Assembly: GCA_029392475.1 (NCBI GenBank)
Contig: CP113940.1
Coordinates: 310,001-374,000 of the forward strand
Length of the DNA: 64,000 nucleotides
Source of the DNA: Streptococcaceae bacterium ESL0687
GTDB taxonomy: Bacteria; Bacillota; Bacilli; Lactobacillales; Streptococcaceae
Reading direction: 5' to 3'
Below are positions 1-40,656 of this stretch, one piece after another (the stretch's first letter is position 1; each line of letters begins with the position of its first letter). The translations under genes and the position numbers were made by a program. The notes under the pieces are model-generated. The model saw only the letters and a program-made list of their open reading frames with translations, was not told the origin of the DNA and did not search any database.

Positions 1-465
1 GAAATGAAACTTCGAATTGAAGATGCCCTTAATGCAACTAGGGCTGCAGTTGAAGAAGGAATTGTAAGTGGTGGGGGAACAGCTCTTGTATCTGTTATTC
101 CAGCAGTTGCCGAACTTGAGCTAGTTGGTGATGAAGCAACAGGGCGTAATATCGTTCTTCGTGCCCTTGAAGAGCCGGTGCGTCAAATTGCTATAAATGC
201 TGGTTATGAAGGTAGTGTTATCATTGACCGCCTTAAAAATAGCGAAGGTACTACAGGTTTCAATGCTGCCACAGGTGAATGGGTTGATATGCTTGAAGCA
301 GGGATTGTTGACCCTGCTAAGGTAACACGTTCTGCCCTTCAAAATGCAGCAAGTGTTGCCAGTCTAATTCTTACAACTGAAGCAGTTGTTGCCAATAAAC
401 CAGAACCTGAAATGCCAAATCCTGCTATGGGAATGGATCCATCAATGATGGGTGGTATGATGTAA
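1..465 (+). CDS. groEL: Chaperonin GroEL, C-terminal part (5' end outside window)
   Basis: The last 154 residues of the 60 kDa chaperonin that folds proteins inside a double heptameric ring with GroES and ATP. The reading frame is open from base 1, so the gene starts upstream of the window; the ATG at base 4 is internal. The segment covers the end of the intermediate and equatorial domains ([11 protein letters not shown], then the [10 protein letters not shown] stretch) and ends in the Gly/Met-rich flexible tail [12 protein letters not shown] that lines the folding cavity. A strong hairpin terminator follows. groES and the promoter lie outside the window, so heat-shock control (CIRCE, HrcA) cannot be judged here. 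Confidence 0.97.
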
Positions 466-8328: not shown

Positions 8329-8345
8329 GTAACTTGCGTCTGATT

Positions 8346-8390
8346 CTAAGCAAAGTTGAGCTCATTTTTAATGGGTTGACCTTTGTCTAG
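8346..8390 (+). promoter_or_regulatory. Long imperfect stem-loop in the pnp leader
   Basis: CTAAGCAAAG (8346-8355) pairs with CTTTGTCTAG (8381-8390) with one mismatch and one G-T pair; after a short internal loop AGCTCATT (8359-8366) pairs with AATGGGTT (8370-8377) around a TTT loop. No T run follows, so it is not a terminator. By analogy with the enterobacterial pnp leader it could be a processing or autoregulation site. Confidence 0.55.
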
Positions 8391-8421
8391 AAAGGCGTAG
8401 ATAAAGAAAAAAGGTGAAAAA

Positions 8422-10530
8422 ATGTCAAAAAAAGTTTTTGAAACAGAATTTTACGGACGCCCTCTAATCGTCGAAGTTGGTCAAGTTGCCAAGCAGGCAA
8501 ATGGGGCTGCAGTGATTCGCTACGGGGAAACAACAGTTCTAACAGCAGCGACCATGAGCAAGGAGATGAAGGACGGTGGTTTCTTCCCGCTTCAGGTCAA
8601 CTATGAGGAAAAGATGTATGCTGCTGGGAAAATCCCAGGAGGATTTAACAAGCGTGAAGGACGTGCTTCAACAGATGCTACCCTTAATGCCCGTCTGATT
8701 GACCGTCCAATCCGTCCAATGTTTGCTGAAGGTTTCCGCAATGAGGTTCAGGTTATCAACACTGTCCTTTCATACGACGAGAATGCTACAGCTGCCATGA
8801 CTGCCATGTTTGGGTCAAGTCTTGCCTTATCAATTTCAGACATCCCATTCAACGGCCCAATCGCTGGAGTTGAGGTCGGCTACATTGATGGTGAGATTAT
8901 CATCAACCCAACTGAGGCCCAAAAAGAAGTAAGTCTTCTAGACCTTTCAGTAGCCGGAAACCGCGATGCCATCAACATGGTTGAGTCGGGTGCCAAAGAG
9001 CTATCTGAAGAAATCATGCTTGAAGCTCTTCTTCGTGGTCATGAGGCTGTAATTGAACTTATCGAATTCCAGGATAAGATTGTCGCTGAAGTTGGAAAAG
9101 TTAAAGCTGAAGTTGAACTTCTTCAAGTTGATGCAGACCTTCAGGCTGAAATCGTTGAAAAATACAATGCAGACCTCCAAGCAGCTGTTCAAGTTGAAGA
9201 AAAACTGGCCCGTGAAGATGCTACAAACGAAGTACGCGACCGTGTAATCGCTGAATACGAGGAAAAATTCGCTGAAGATGAAAACTTCACCCGCATCATG
9301 CGCGAGGTTAATGAAATCCTTGAAATCATGGAGCACACTGAGGTTCGCCGTCTAATCACTGAAGACAAGGTTCGTCCTGACGGTCGTAAGATTGACGAAA
9401 TCCGTCCTCTTGACGCTGAAATTGACTTCCTACCTAAGGTTCACGGATCAGGTCTATTCACCCGTGGACAAACTCAGGCCCTTTCAGTCCTAACACTTGC
9501 CCCAATGAGTGAAGCTCAAGTAATTGACGGACTTGGTGAAGAGTACAAAAAACGTTTCATGCACCACTATAACTTCCCTCAATATTCAGTTGGATCAACA
9601 GGACGTTACGGGGCTCCAGGACGCCGTGAAATCGGTCACGGGGCTCTTGGTGAACGTGCTCTTGAGCAGGTTATGCCTTCAGTTGAAGACTTCCCATATG
9701 CCATCCGTCTGGTGGCTGAGGTCCTTGAATCAAATGGATCAAGCTCACAGGCTTCAATCTGTGCCGGAACTCTTGCCCTTATGGCAGGTGGAGTGCCAAT
9801 CAAGGCACCAGTTGCAGGGATTGCCATGGGTCTAATCTCTGACGGTGAAAACTACACAGTTCTTACAGATATCCAGGGTCTTGAAGACCATTTTGGGGAC
9901 ATGGACTTCAAGGTCGCTGGAACCCGCGATGGAATTACAGCCCTTCAAATGGATATCAAGATTGACGGAATCACTCCGCAAATCCTGACAGAGGCCCTTG
10001 AACAGGCTAAACGTGCCCGCTTTGAAATTCTCGATGTAATTGAAAATACAATTGCTGCCCCTCGTCCAGAACTGGCGCCAACTGCTCCAAAAATTGAAAC
10101 CATGCAGATCGACGTTGACAAGATTAAACTTGTTATCGGTAAGGGTGGGGAAACAATCGACAAGATTATCGCTGAAACTGGTGTTAAAATCGACATCGAT
10201 GAAGACGGACTCGTTGCCATTTTCTCAAGTGACGCGGCTGCCATCAAACGTGCCATGGAAATCATCGAGGCAATCGTCAAGGTGGCAAAAGTTGGCGACA
10301 TCTACGATGCCAAGGTTACAAGAATCGAGAAATTCGGAGCCTTCGTTAATTTATTTGGATCGACAAATGCCCTCCTTCACATTTCAGAACTTGACTGGGC
10401 TAAAACAGACAAGGTCGAAGACGTGGTGAATATTGGTGAAACAATCAAGGTTAAGGTTACTAAGCTTGATGACCGTGGAAGAATTGACGTTAGCCACAAG
10501 GTTCTTATCCCACGCGCAGATGAAGACTAG
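8422..10530 (+). CDS. pnp: Polyribonucleotide nucleotidyltransferase (PNPase)
   Basis: Phosphorolytic 3'-5' exoribonuclease of RNA decay, trimeric and cytoplasmic, 702 residues. Two RNase PH cores are seen: the first from about residue 10 to 230 ([20 protein letters not shown], then PIRPMF), the second from about 315 to 545 ([50 protein letters not shown], the catalytic [18 protein letters not shown]), joined by an all-helical linker. A KH domain ([14 protein letters not shown]) and an S1 domain ([20 protein letters not shown]) close the protein. Codons are strongly biased to C-ending forms compared with neighbours, suggesting high expression. Single gene with its own promoter, leader and terminator. 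Confidence 0.97.
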
Positions 10531-10537
10531 TTAAGAG

Positions 10538-10571
10538 AGTAAAAGAAAATGAAAGTTTTCTTTTACTTTTT
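10538..10571 (+). terminator. Terminator of pnp
   Basis: A perfect 12-bp stem (AGTAAAAGAAAA and TTTTCTTTTACT), 6-nt loop, followed by five T. Confidence 0.9.
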
Positions 10572-12410: not shown

Positions 12411-12437
12411 CTAGAAATTATATCAAATAAAATCTTG

Positions 12438-12446
12438 TGCTATAAT
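12438..12446 (+). promoter_or_regulatory. Extended -10 promoter of rlmB
   Basis: TGCTATAAT (12438-12446) is a perfect extended -10 with TTATAT as a weak -35 (12418-12423). It separates rlmB-rae1 from cysS-mrnC. Confidence 0.7.
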
Positions 12447-12485
12447 AGGGCATAGGATTTTATTTATTTACAGACAGGAAAAACA

Positions 12486-19805: not shown

Positions 19806-19821
19806 ATAAAAAATTCAGGAC

Positions 19822-20033
19822 AGGAAAAGACATCTAAATTTACAGCGAGTGGGGAAATGGTGGAAGCCCCGTAATCACTGGATGTGTTTTTATCACCTAT
19901 TTTATCTTTACTGAAGGAGGGCTTAAGCTATCTATTAAGTAAAGACGTTCCTCGCGTTAAGAGTTAAGATACGGCCTTGGCCGTAAATTAGGGTGGTACC
20001 ACGGCTTTTCGTCCCTTGACGAGGAGCCTTTTT
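19822..20033 (+). promoter_or_regulatory. T-box riboswitch of ileS (tRNA-Ile)
   Basis: The T-box sequence AGGGTGGTACCACG is at 19990-20003. Stem I contains ACATC pairing with GATGT (19881-19885) and an ATC isoleucine codon at 19892-19894 followed by A, in the place of the specifier loop. The terminator (20003-20033) has an 11-bp stem GGCTTTTCGTC/GACGAGGAGCC and a T5 tail and shares bases with the antiterminator. Uncharged tRNA-Ile should stabilise the antiterminator and allow ileS transcription. No distinct promoter was found between divIVA and the T-box. Confidence 0.93.
20003..20033 (+). terminator. T-box leader terminator
   Basis: The 11-bp stem (two G-T pairs) with a CCTT loop and five T directly before the ileS ribosome site; conditional, part of the riboswitch. 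Confidence 0.9.
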
Positions 20034-20059
20034 ATATTTTTAAGAGAAGGATTAACAAA

Positions 20060-22852
20060 ATGAAAGTAAAAGATACATTAAATCTTGGTAAGACTGGTTT
20101 TCCAATGCGTGCTGGTCTTCCAACTAAGGAACCAGTTTGGCAAGAAGGTTGGGATGAAGCAGACCTTTACAATGCCCGTCTAAAACAGAATGAAGATAAA
20201 CCATCATTCATGCTCCACGATGGACCTCCGTACGCCAATGGGAACATCCACGTAGGACATGCCCTCAACAAAATTTCTAAAGATATCATCGTTCGTTATA
20301 AGAACATGACTGGCTTCCGTGCTCCACTTGTTCCTGGATGGGACACTCACGGGCTACCAATCGAACAAGTTCTTGCTAAAAAAGGAATCAAACGCAAGGA
20401 AATGGACCTTCTTGATTATTTAGAAGAGTGCCGTAAGTATGCCCTTAGCCAGGTTGATACTCAACGTGCAGACTTTAAACGTCTAGGTGTTATGGCTGAC
20501 TGGAATCACCCATATGTGACTTTAGATCCATCATACGAGGCAGCACAAATCCACGTCTTTGGAAAAATGGCTGAAAAAGGCTACATCTACAAGGGACAAA
20601 AACCAATCTACTGGTCACCATCAAGTGAATCAAGTCTAGCTGAAGCTGAGATTGAATACCAAGACGTTCGTTCTGCATCAATCTTTGTAGCCTTCAAGGC
20701 AGTAGACACTAAAGGACTGCTTCCAGAAGACACTGAATTTGTTATCTGGACAACAACTCCTTGGACAATTCCATCTAACCTTGGAATCTTTGCCCACCCT
20801 GACTATGAATACGTGCTAGTTTCAACAGGAGGTCGCAAGTTCCTAGTAGCATCTGAGCTTGTGGATTCAGTAGCTAAGGAAGTTGGTTGGGAAGAATTTG
20901 AAATCATCCAAACAATCAAGGGATCTGAGCTTGATAACATGGTAGCCCGTCACCCATTTTATGATCGTGACTCACTAGTGATGAATGCTGAATATGTAAC
21001 CCTTGATTCAGGTACAGGACTAGTACACACAGCACCAGGACACGGGGAAGACGACTACTTCTTCAGCCGCAAGTACAAGCTTGACGTCCTAAGCCCAATC
21101 GATGACCGTGGTTACTATACAGAAGAAGCACCAGGGTTTGAAGGACTCTTCTACGACGAGGGTAACAAAAAAGTTAGCCAAATGCTTGAAGAATCAGGAG
21201 CCCTTCTAAAACTTAACTTCTTCACCCACAGCTACCCACACGACTGGCGTACTAAAAAACCAGTTATCTTCCGTGCGACTCCACAGTGGTTTGCCTCAAT
21301 CGACAAGTTCCGTGGTGACATTTTAGATGCCATTGAAGGTGTTAACTGGATCATGCCTTGGGGTAAAACACGTCTCTACAACATGGTTCGCGACCGTGGT
21401 GACTGGGTAATTTCCCGTCAACGTGCCTGGGGTGTTCCACTTCCAATCTTCTATGCGGAAAATGGGGAAGCAATCATCACTCCAGAAACTACAAACCACA
21501 TCTCAGACCTATTCCGTGAGCACGGATCTAAGGTTTGGTGGGAACGTGATGCCAAAGACCTATTACCAGAAGGGTTCACTCACCCTGGTTCACCTAATGG
21601 GATCTTCACCAAAGAAAAAGATATCATGGACGTTTGGTTTGACTCAGGATCTTCTCACGAAGCAGTCCTAAGACAGCGCCCTGAGCTATCATTCCCAGCT
21701 GATTTATATCTTGAAGGATCTGACCAATACCGTGGATGGTTCAACTCAAGTATCACAACAAGTGTTGCCATCAATGAAGAGTCACCTTACCGCGCTGTCC
21801 TTTCTCAAGGATTCGTTCTTGACGGAGAAGGCCGTAAGATGAGTAAGTCTCTAGGAAATGTCATCACTCCAGGTACAGTTGTTAAACAATACGGGGCAGA
21901 CATCCTCCGCCTTTGGGTAGCAAGTGTCGACACTGAAAGTGATGTTCGTGTATCAATGGATATCCTAGGTCAGGTTTCTGAAACCTACCGTAAGATCCGT
22001 AACACCCTACGTTTCCTTATCGCAAACTCAAGCGACTACAAGAAATCCGTTAACGAAGTTGCCTACACAGACCTTCAACCGTCTGACAAGTACATCCTTA
22101 ACCGCCTGAACGAGGTAGTTGAGTCTTCACTTAAATCATACGAAGAGTACGACTTCATGAATGTTTACAAGACAGTCTTCAACTTCCTGACAAATGACCT
22201 GTCTTCATTCTACCTGGACTTCGCTAAAGACGTGGTTTACATCGATGCAGCAGATAGTCTTGCTCGTCGCAGCATGCAAACAGTCTTCTATGAAATCCTT
22301 GTAAAACTTACAAAACTTCTAGTTCCAATCCTTCCTCACACTGCTGAAGAGATCTGGACCTACCTAGAAGACGAAGAAGCAGAATACGCTTATCTTGCTG
22401 AAATGCCAGAAGTCCAGTCTTACACAAACATTGAAGAACTTACTGACACTTGGTCAGCCTTCATGGACTTCCGTGACAAGGTGCTTAAGGCCCTTGAAGT
22501 AGCCCGTGATGAAAAAATTATCGGTAAGTCTCTAGAGGCTGCAGTTACTGTTTACCCAGATGAAGTAACAGCTACTCTACTTGCTTCAATGAACGAAGAT
22601 ATCGCAAAACTTCTGATTGTTTCTGACTTTACTGTATCAAGTGATGCAGCTCCAGAAAACGCTCAAGAGTTTGAAGGGGTATCAATCCTTGTTGAACATG
22701 CAAAAGGTGAAGTTTGTGACCGTTGCCGTCGTTTAGATGAGACTGTAGGAACCAACGAAAATGAAAATCTACAAAATCTATGTAACCGTTGTGCCACAAT
22801 CGTAACTGAGGAATTCCCTGAAGTCCTAGTTGAAGGTTTTGAAACCAAATAA
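20060..22852 (+). CDS. ileS: Isoleucine--tRNA ligase
   Basis: Class I synthetase of 930 residues that charges tRNA-Ile and edits valine. HIGH motif as [16 protein letters not shown] loop as [10 protein letters not shown], the editing CP1 insert includes [13 protein letters not shown], and the C-terminal zinc knuckle shows CDRCRR and CNRC (four Cys). Start ATG 20060 follows AAGAGAAGGA. Expression is controlled by the upstream T-box. Strong C-ending codon bias indicates high expression. Confidence 0.98.
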
Positions 22853-37942: not shown

Positions 37943-38047
37943 AAACTTTGCCTATCATAAATTAGTAATAGCTGCGTAGTTGGCTAACAGCTGTGCATAA
38001 ATTTTATTTCAGAAATGAAATACTTAGTAGATATAAGGAGGGTAAGA

Positions 38048-39358
38048 ATGTCTTTACCTACAGTAGCCATCGTTGGGCGCCCAAATGTTGGGAAATCGAC
38101 GATTTTCAACCGTATCGCAGGTGAGCGTATCTCAATTGTTGAGGACACACCAGGAGTAACTCGTGACCGTATTTATGCAGTCGGTGAGTGGTTGAACAAA
38201 AAATTCTCTCTAATCGATACAGGGGGGATTGAACTTTCAAACGAGCCTTTTATGACTCAGATTAAAGCCCAAGCTGAAATCGCCATGGATGAAGCGGACG
38301 TTATCATCCACGTAGTTGACGGAGAAGCTGGTGTTACTGACGCTGACGAATATGTCGCTCAAATTCTTTACAGAACCGACAAGCCAGTAATCCTTGTGGT
38401 AAATAAGGTTGATAATCCAGAGCGTCGTCTCGATATCTTTGACTTTTATTCACTTGGTTTGGGTGATCCTTATCCAGTATCAGCATCCCACGGGATTGGT
38501 ACAGGGGACGTTTTAGATGCTATCGTTGAAAATCTTCCAGTTGAAGAAGAGGAAGAAAATGAAGATGTAATCAAATTCTCCCTTATTGGACGTCCAAATG
38601 TTGGTAAATCAAGCTTGATTAATGCCATTCTAGGTGAAGAGCGTGTTATCGCAAGCCCTGTTGCAGGAACAACAAGGGATGCAATCGATACTCATTTTGT
38701 TGATCCAGAAGGTCAAGAGTACCTAATGATTGATACTGCAGGGATGCGTAAGAGTGGTAAAGTTTATGAATCAACTGAAAAATACTCTGTAATGCGTGCC
38801 ATGCGTGCCATTGACCGGAGCGACATCGTTCTTATGGTCCTAAATGCTGAAGAGGGGATTCGTGAGTACGACAAACGTATTGCAGGATTTGCCCATGAGG
38901 CCGGAAAAGGTGTGATTATTGTTGTTAACAAGTGGGATACCCTTGAAAAAGACAATAAAACCCTACAAAATTTTGAGGCAGATATTAGAGATCAGTTCCA
39001 ATATCTATCATATGCTCCAATTGTTTTTGTATCAGCCAAGACCAAACAACGTCTGCACAAATTGCCTGAAATGATTAAAGAAGTTTCAGCTTCACAAAAC
39101 TTACGTATCCCATCATCTGTTTTAAATGATGTAATCATGGATGCTATAGCAATCAATCCGACTCCTACAGACAAGGGACGTCGTCTGAAAATCTTCTACG
39201 GAACTCAGGTGGCTATTAAGCCACCAACATTTGTAATCTTTGTAAACGAGGAAGAACTTATGCACTTCTCATATGCTCGTTTCCTAGAAAACCAAATTCG
39301 TAAGGCTTTTGTCTTTGAGGGAACTCCGATTAAGATTATTGCCCGTAAACGTAAATAA
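38048..39358 (+). CDS. der: Ribosome assembly GTPase Der (EngA)
   Basis: Essential GTPase with two tandem G domains, about 436 residues, needed for 50S assembly. G1 motifs [11 protein letters not shown] and [12 protein letters not shown]3 DTGGIE and DTAGMR; G4 NKVDN and NKWDT. A KH-like domain closes the C terminus ([20 protein letters not shown]). ATG 38048 follows AAGGAGGG at 5 bases, so the earlier ATG at 38015 is not used. No terminator is clear after the stop; a structured stretch follows. Confidence 0.97.
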
Positions 39359-39362
39359 GCTT

Positions 39363-39404
39363 TCTGCCTTTTAGACTTAGTTTAATTTAGTTTAATAAGG
39401 CAGA
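39363..39404. repeat. Inverted repeat TCTGCCTT/AAGGCAGA after der
   Basis: Perfect 8-bp arms (39363-39370 and 39397-39404) enclose a 26-nt A/T-rich loop that contains AGTTTAAT twice, 10 bp apart. No T run follows. Confidence 0.45.
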
Positions 39405-39419
39405 GTAAAAATTTAAACC

Positions 39420-39485
39420 TAGTAGCTAAGTAATCAGTAGTAATGAATTATTAGAAATTTATTACTACTAGTTGCTTGGCTATTA
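39420..39485. repeat. 66-nt near-perfect hairpin in the der-eamA gap
   Basis: Arms 39420-39448 and 39457-39485 pair at 28 of 29 positions (five G-T pairs, one C/A mismatch) around the 8-nt loop TATTAGAA. It lies in a 228-bp gene-free stretch together with the inverted repeat at 39363-39404. No T run follows directly, so it is not a plain terminator; seven T occur 25 bp later. Its role is unknown (RNA element, processed 3' end or short mobile remnant). Confidence 0.7.
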
Positions 39486-39586
39486 TTGATTTTGGCCTTT
39501 ATTTATCGGTTTTTTTAATGATTCAATAAATAAGACCTATCTATATAGTTAATAGAATAAAATAGAAATACAAAGGATTTGATATT

Positions 39587-40492
39587 ATGGAAAATAAAAA
39601 ATGGCTGGGTCTACTACTAGTCATCAGTGGAGCAATTCTTTGGGGAACATCAGGCCCTGTTGCTGAGTATATGTTTTCTACTCAGAATGTTTCTCCTTTA
39701 TGGGTGGTTTGTATCCGTCTCTCGGTTGCAGGAGCTTTATTATTAGTTAATTACAGGCTAGCTAATAAGGAATCAATCTTCTCAATATGGTCTAATCCTT
39801 CTTTTAGAAGGCAGCTTTTGTTATTTAGCTTCTTTGGGATGATGCCCATACAGTTGCTTTATTTTTTAGCAATTAAGTTTTCTAATGCTTCAACAGCAAC
39901 AGTCCTGCAGTTTACAAGTCCAGTCTTTATTATCTTATATTTAGCTGTCAAAAATCATAAATTGCCTAGTAGGTTTGCAGTATTTTCAGTGGCGCTTGCC
40001 ATGCTAGGAACCTTTCTTCTAGCTACAGGAGGAAATATTAATAGTCTTTCGATTTCACTAGCAGGTCTACTTTTTGGATTATCTTGTGGATTGGTTAGTG
40101 CCTTTTATACCCTACTTCCTGTTCAACTTCTCAAGCACTATGATGCTAAATTAGTTTGTGGTTGGGGTATGCTTATTGGTAGCCTTCCCTTAATGCCTAC
40201 TCTGGTTTTAAATCATCCGCAAGCTATTGACCATAGTTTTCTTGCAGAGCTTGTCTATATTGTCATTATTGGGACCATGCTTGCTCACTTATTTTATGTT
40301 ACCAGCCTAAATTATCTTAAACCTGAGGTTACTAACGTTTCAGGTTCCTTTGAGCCACTAACGGCCACCCTTTTGTCTGTTATGTTCTTACATTTAAGAC
40401 TAAATCTACCAGAAATTATTGGGATTGTTTTAATTTTAATTATGGCGATCTTACAATCTCTTCCCCAAAAATACAAGGGACAGGGTAGTTAG
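39587..40492 (+). CDS. EamA/DMT superfamily permease
   Basis: A 301-residue membrane protein with about ten helices in two EamA repeats (for example LGLLLVISGAILWGTSGP at the start and LNYLKPEVTNVSGSFEPLTA in the second half, the family repeat motif). Members export amino acids, metabolites or drugs; the substrate here is unknown. RBS AAAGGA lies before ATG 39587. It appears to be a single gene; a weak -10 (TAGAAT at 39553-39558) is upstream. Confidence 0.9.
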   Translation: MENKKWLGLLLVISGAILWGTSGPVAEYMFSTQNVSPLWVVCIRLSVAGALLLVNYRLANKESIFSIWSNPSFRRQLLLFSFFGMMPIQLLYFLAIKFSNASTATVLQFTSPVFIILYLAVKNHKLPSRFAVFSVALAMLGTFLLATGGNINSLSISLAGLLFGLSCGLVSAFYTLLPVQLLKHYDAKLVCGWGMLIGSLPLMPTLVLNHPQAIDHSFLAELVYIVIIGTMLAHLFYVTSLNYLKPEVTNVSGSFEPLTATLLSVMFLHLRLNLPEIIGIVLILIMAILQSLPQKYKGQGS

Positions 40493-40547
40493 ATAAAAAT
40501 TGAGGCAAGTAGGGATATATAAAGACCTTATAATTCATCTGGAATAT

Positions 40548-40576
40548 TTGCTAAAAAAAATATTTTGTGGTACTAT
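40548..40576 (+). promoter_or_regulatory. Promoter of the rimP-nusA-infB operon
   Basis: TTGCTA (40548-40553), 17-bp spacer, TACTAT (40571-40576) with TGG before it (extended -10). Confidence 0.75.
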
Positions 40577-40592
40577 GTAATAAAATACATGA

Positions 40593-40617
40593 AAGGAGCG
40601 AACTTGTTTCGCTCTTT
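40593..40617 (+). promoter_or_regulatory. Leader hairpin of rimP
   Basis: AAGGAGCGAA (40593-40602) pairs with TTCGCTCTTT (40608-40617) around CTTGT (one G-T pair). It sits about 20 nt after the -10 in the leader and is followed by TGTGTTTATTTTTTC, a loose T tract, so it could be an attenuator. Confidence 0.55.
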
Positions 40618-40656
40618 GTGTTTATTTTTTCACTTTTTTAAAGAAAAGGAGGTATT

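Follow-up and report, generated by a model that had tools for sequence, protein, structure and literature searches.

A long-armed hairpin between der and eamA of Streptococcaceae bacterium ESL0687 is probably a selected intercistronic RNA structure

NusG-dependent intrinsic terminators have been described for Bacillus subtilis and are characterized by weak basal A-U and G-U pairs and by interrupted U tracts (PMC8060035). According to the values given in PMC12207403, median stem lengths of terminators are 20-28 nt in most species, 33 nt in E. faecalis and about 35 nt in a higher group. Intercistronic or protective RNA structures that set the stoichiometry of operons are also known (PMC5927463), and according to PMC8794818 RNA hairpins arise and are maintained through template switching. 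A long-armed hairpin between the genes der and eamA of Streptococcaceae bacterium ESL0687, here called SL2, has features in common with several of these systems. With weak NusA/NusG-assisted terminators inside operons (attenuators) it shares a base of A-U and G-U pairs, an interrupted U-rich tail, the position in a codirectional gap, and an organism without detectable Rho domains. In contrast to these, it has arms of 30 nt, which greatly exceed the usual length, its tail lacks the TTNTTT pause motif given for NusG terminators in PMC8060035, and termination would be a predicted activity at this site; with 58-60 nt, SL2 is long for a terminator when compared with the medians in PMC12207403. It resembles RNase III processing or mRNA-protecting stem-loops in being a long near-perfect stem between codirectional genes, but unlike them it has a U-rich tail, and cleavage or decay at the site is hypothetical. 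As in template-switch hairpins, both arms have changed in concert, some of the changes without a G-U intermediate, whereas the one-strand excess of G-U pairs in the class of hairpins to which SL2 belongs suggests RNA-level selection as well.

The window, i.e., the whole stretch of 64,000 nucleotides that was analysed, belongs to a genome of one contig with 1,465,505 bases (G000). The GTPase gene der (engA; 38015..39358, +; PF01926 in two stretches and a KH-like PF14714 domain), whose true start is probably at 38048, is followed by eamA, a gene for a transporter of the EamA/DMT family (39587..40492, +; PF00892, E 1.7e-34). The der stop codon ends at 39358 and the eamA ATG lies at 39587, leaving a gap of 228 nt. 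The claim of an earlier note on this DNA that the gap has no ORF holds, as the ORF list contains none of at least 50 amino acids there. All gene names other than der, eamA and rimP were read off the translations without a search; the resulting order around the locus, nrdR-dnaB-dnaI-der and rimP-nusA-ylxR-infB, is one that we take to fit the Streptococcaceae. A promoter-like site upstream of rimP (40548..40576, +; TTGCTA, 17 nt, TG, TACTAT) was used for comparison.

The first hairpin of the gap, SL1 (39363..39404, +), follows directly after the der stop codon and has no U tail. It is the second inverted repeat mentioned in the earlier note and is real: its 8 outer pairs are perfect, and the folded RNA extends it to about 16 pairs interrupted by one bulge. 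SL2 itself (39420..39485, +) was found by inverted-repeat search and by RNA folding and has arms of 30 nt each (39420-39449 and 39456-39485) around a loop of 6 nt. Watson-Crick pairs make up 80% of its stem, the 30 positions being divided into 24 Watson-Crick pairs, 5 G-U pairs and one A/C mismatch. The description in the earlier note, arms paired at 28 of 29 positions around an 8-nt loop, is true once G-U is counted as a pair. Between SL2 and eamA, the inverted-repeat search indicated a possible third stem (39494..39537, +), which in this extent is absent from the centroid fold and is part of the 105 nt by which the gap exceeds that of the sister species G002.

The RNA fold of 39340-39600 has a free energy of -65.4 kcal/mol. 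Dinucleotide shuffles averaged -42.6 (sd 4.18), and none of the 200 was as stable (z -5.45). SL2, which the earlier note called the largest unexplained structure of the window, is the top-scoring hairpin in the 64 kb with a score of 51.5 (ungapped arms, loop of 3-12 nt), followed by a hairpin with 37.0; the best hairpin over 6 shuffles of the whole window scored 32. With G-U and A/C scored alike, SL2 reaches 44 and still ranks first in the 264 kb of G000 that were examined, followed by a hairpin with 40. Under the same scoring, values of 48.5 and 48 were found in the samples from the relatives G056 and G002, respectively, so the score alone does not make SL2 unique. Among the 42 tandem post-stop hairpins in the G000 sample, SL2 is the only one with arms of at least 25 nt. 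Two other post-stop hairpins in tandem gaps of the window (10534-10571 and 12425-12465) have 3 G-U pairs and no A/C mismatch each, and hairpins of similar size are found in both corresponding gaps of G002.

The U-rich tail of SL2, TATTATTGATTTT (39481..39493, +), is interrupted; it shares positions with the basal A-U pairs because counting starts at the last G-C pair. The sequence after this pair, TATTATTGATTTTGG, has 5 T in its first 8 positions. The statement in the earlier note that there is no direct T tail is nearly correct: no T run longer than 2 occurs before the TTTT at positions 10-13, and the tail is U-rich with interruptions. Tandem post-stop hairpins in the G000 sample, a comparison set that was itself chosen by the hairpin score of the analysis, have a mean of 5.71 T in 8, and, counting SL2 itself, 11 of the 42 do not exceed its tail score. 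A general loss of U tails in G000, which had been suspected from the window alone, was rejected on the sampled stretches: among the tandem hairpins, a T run of at least 4 was present for 33 of 42 in G000, 37 of 44 in G002 (a sample that leaves out the der-eamA hairpin of G002), 25 of 38 in G056 and 26 of 35 in G006.

The comparison within the genus comprised four genomes, G000, G001, G002 and G003, and G002 is the only one of the other three with the order der-eamA. All 63 of 63 window genes map to G002, where all neighbouring pairs are likewise adjacent, and the proteins Der and EamA are 98% and 80% identical, respectively. The der-eamA gap of G002 has 123 nt and contains a short stem of different sequence at the place of SL1 and, at the place of SL2, a hairpin with a free energy of -32.6 kcal/mol versus -33.9 kcal/mol for SL2. 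The outer ends of this stem are as in SL2 (AGTAGC ... GGCTATT) and the inner arms differ; it consists of a 13-pair inner stem, a 10-pair outer stem and 4 weak basal pairs, and the 12-pair core of its inner stem has no G-U. In both species the shared outer stem ends beside a U-rich tail with 5 T in 8 positions, and few letters are common outside the stem ends.

Covariation in relatives, which the earlier note had named as a sign of RNA, is seen in the comparison with G002, where 22 pairs were compared in a structure-anchored alignment of these two species (stem ends and inner stem anchored): 12 pairs are identical, 7 have substitutions in both partners with pairing preserved, 2 have a substitution in one partner with pairing preserved, and 1 pair of G000 is broken in G002. 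The count leaves out 7 of the 29 pairs of G000, namely 3 at the end loop and 4 at the internal loop of G002. A G-U intermediate is impossible for 4 of the 7 double changes (T-A to A-T, G-C to C-G, G-C to T-A and T-A to G-C). These numbers rest on the anchoring of the stem ends, as an automatic alignment of the sequences alone places the 5' arms in another register. Because anchoring favours pairing, a control independent of alignment was run. After random substitution of 10, 20, 30 and 40% of the G000 hairpin, 69, 4, 1 and 0 of 2000 descendants, respectively, reached the stability of the G002 hairpin; in the reverse direction the numbers were 33, 2, 0 and 0 of 2000. Within the anchored pairs, G000 and G002 differ at 18 of the 44 positions (about 41%). 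As far as can be read from the two sequences, pairing has been kept or remade between G000 and G002, for which the control itself gives no cause.

Elsewhere the locus is built differently. In G001 and G003, der is followed by a hairpin with 14-nt arms and no T run and then by another gene. Among 26 further der loci of the family, viewed from 113 genomes with a match, 18 have an ordinary hairpin with a T run directly after der as judged by eye and 2 have no plain terminator of this kind; in the remaining 6 the gap was not properly displayed.

If DNA symmetry alone mattered, G-U pairs and A/C mismatches would be expected at a ratio of 1:1 on the coding strand. In sampled stretches of four genomes, with both mismatches scored alike, the hairpins of tandem gaps have G-U to A/C ratios of 31:7 in G000 (two-sided p 0.00012; 26:6 without SL2), 22:9 in G002 (p 0.029), 30:15 in G056 (p 0.036) and 39:7 in G006 (p 1.8e-6). 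On a per-hairpin basis, the ratios are 17:3 (p 0.0026), 11:4 (p 0.12), 14:7 and 21:2, respectively, and are significant in G000 and G006 only. Convergent gaps (5:5 and 7:9) are an unfair control, and their evenness is largely built in, because most of their hairpins were counted twice, once from each side (16 of 18 in G000 and 18 of 22 in G002). The ratio of 5:1 in SL2 itself is not significant, and the excess of G-U over A/C could also come from a mutational strand bias. The coding strand of SL2 folds to -33.9 kcal/mol and the reverse strand to -17.2 kcal/mol, whereas the strands of the G002 hairpin differ little (-32.6 versus -29.4 kcal/mol). The plus-strand RNA is the likely acting form of SL2. 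From sequence comparison, the main support for a role at the RNA level is the pairing kept in the sister species; the G-U excess in tandem gaps adds weaker support. SL2 is a genuine hairpin and, with its pairing evidence drawn from two species, probably a selected intercistronic RNA structure of known kind.

In G002, the eamA ATG follows the GGCTAT stem end after only 31 nt. A promoter scan of the G002 stretch found 4 promoter-like pairs with 9 of 12 positions, with 3.5 expected by chance. Those near the gap are one over the der stop codon and before the stem (L012, 1349-1378) and one that ends in the start codon (1475-1502), which is too late to serve the whole eamA gene. As G002 has no room for a promoter between the hairpin and eamA, transcription of eamA should come either from der or from a start upstream of the hairpin, placing the hairpin in the eamA message. 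In G000, a weak promoter-like pair (9 of 12) lies 3' of SL2 at 39492-39519; eamA may have a start of its own there, which counts against the preferred reading given below. A terminator scan of G000 listed none at SL2. The Rho domains PF07498 and PF07497 gave no match in any of the 6 genomes searched; 9 of 14 control genomes match in each search, Lactococcus lactis with PF07497 only. Since no Rho domains were detected, hairpins probably do most of the terminating.

The reading that is preferred, tentatively and at slightly less than even chances, is that SL2 is a selected intercistronic hairpin in a der-eamA message that acts as a leaky terminator or attenuator. SL2 would lie in the intercistronic spacer of a presumably shared message and would fold just behind RNA polymerase, in the nascent RNA. 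Given the weak A-U/G-U base and the interruptions in the U tail, part of the polymerases would then be released and the output of eamA would be a fraction of that of der, an outcome on which selection may act and for which it would maintain the pairing and not the letters. As expected of a terminator, SL2 is a stable hairpin 3' of a gene on the coding strand; the below-average U tail and arms far longer than a terminator needs are points against this reading. The stem would be long enough for RNase III too, and cutting and termination may both occur.

The main rival to a leaky terminator is that SL2 serves mainly as a processing or stability stem, where a cut by RNase III or a block to exonucleases would separate der and eamA mRNAs with differing lifetimes. 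This is possible, if on the unlikely side. SL2 folds with 29 pairs and one mismatch into the long near-perfect double-stranded RNA expected of an RNase III stem, and in G002 there are the 13-pair inner and 10-pair outer stems with the 4 weak basal pairs; RNase III (PF14622) is encoded in both genomes searched, G000 and G002, and the poor U tail of SL2 as well as the operon structures cited above (PMC5927463) point the same way. Pairing by itself, however, does not separate processing from termination, and the shared outer stem adjoins the U-rich tail in both species. It is also conceivable, but improbable, that template switching during replication (quasipalindrome correction) keeps the two arms matched and that the hairpin has little or no function. 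One-step copying of an arm would bypass G-U as 4 of the 7 double changes do, and would fit the G002 core without G-U and the hairpins described in PMC8794818; it does not predict the one-strand preference for G-U over A/C in tandem gaps, to which SL2 adds its own non-significant ratio, and the much weaker fold of the SL2 reverse strand also counts against it. Template switching and selection can act together, and a lineage-specific regulatory stem whose inner helix was replaced in concert by template switching, with its strength kept by RNA-level selection and der-eamA attenuation conserved in spite of the many altered letters of the inner stem, is likewise improbable.

A regulated leader of eamA, i.e., a riboswitch, a T-box or an attenuator bound by a protein, would agree with the presence of a hairpin in the probable eamA leader of both species and with a partial alternative pairing of 39375-39388 with 39410-39423, but is very unlikely. 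No Rfam 15 family reached the gathering threshold anywhere in the window, and the 8 matches with E up to 10 in 39300-39700 are all far below the gathering thresholds (7 microRNA models and one SAM_alpha with 11.2 bits against a gathering score of 36, E 6.2, minus strand, 39480-39534). The alignment of G000 and G002 revealed no conserved unpaired core. A strong hairpin was also rejected as a general feature of eamA, as none of 17 homologue loci in relatives (from 29 non-self loci, leaving out that of G002 and 11 others with second, split or weak matches) has a comparable one upstream, the maximum score being 37.5. The options in the earlier note (a small RNA, a double-stranded 3' end processed by RNase III, or a decayed short mobile repeat) are partly borne out, in that a role at the RNA level is supported; they did not include the leaky terminator or attenuator preferred here. 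A small RNA gene of its own would account for a stable isolated hairpin in a stretch without ORF, but the hairpin has no convincing promoter before it, belongs to no Rfam family and shares few letters with the sister outside the stem ends, and this option is scarcely credible. Equally hard to credit is a decayed mobile repeat similar to a MITE or to BOX or RUP elements. The RUP, BOX and MITE elements of streptococci are, like SL2, imperfect palindromes in gaps, and the long inverted repeat and the difference in gap length between G000 (228 nt) and its sister (123 nt) might suggest an insertion; unlike these elements, SL2 is single-copy and has a syntenic counterpart in the sister, and neither other copies nor an empty site were found in the genomes searched. 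Several copies would be expected of a mobile inverted repeat, but the 241-bp stretch gave one full match in G000, the other 19 matches covering only 14-29 nt. The G002 spacer likewise has one full match and matches its own opposite arm, and the rest are short and weak (E 0.1 or above); one of these, 22 nt at position 86457 with E 0.15 on one strand and 0.97 on the other, looks like a short palindrome. The pattern GTAGCYA-25..55-TGGCTAT occurs once each in G000 and G002, where it is found by construction as it was built from both stem ends, nowhere else in these genomes, and not in G001 or G003; a reversed control pattern had 4 matches across the four genus genomes. The closest other match, near 1455000, was dismissed as an ordinary terminator-like palindrome, a short match near 1007346 lies inside a coding ORF, and a phage origin of the hairpin stretch was rejected, as a phage collection contained no match.

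Further hairpins were observed elsewhere in the window. A hairpin with 23-nt arms (8344-8392) lies in the leader of the gene at 8422, presumably encoding PNPase according to its translation, and has a counterpart of equal score in G002 (341398-341446). It recalls the pnp leader of E. coli, which is cut by RNase III. The gap before the large gene at 20060 (19806-20059) has 254 nt compared with 163 nt in G002 and contains a hairpin with a TTTTT tail (20003-20028); Rfam reported no T-box there at gathering score. The leader of rimP, downstream of the promoter-like site, contains a hairpin (40582-40628) that G002 has as well. In the stretch from eamA to this site (40493-40581), the hairpin search found no terminator-like hairpin, and the eamA message may therefore run into rimP-nusA.

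The odd-looking palindrome between der and eamA is thus probably no remnant of a mobile element but an RNA structure that has been maintained. It would offer a small example of transcription being apportioned between der and a transporter gene in a bacterium with no detectable Rho domains. Its two arms, which changed together between closely related species, are a useful example in the debate on how long stems stay paired.
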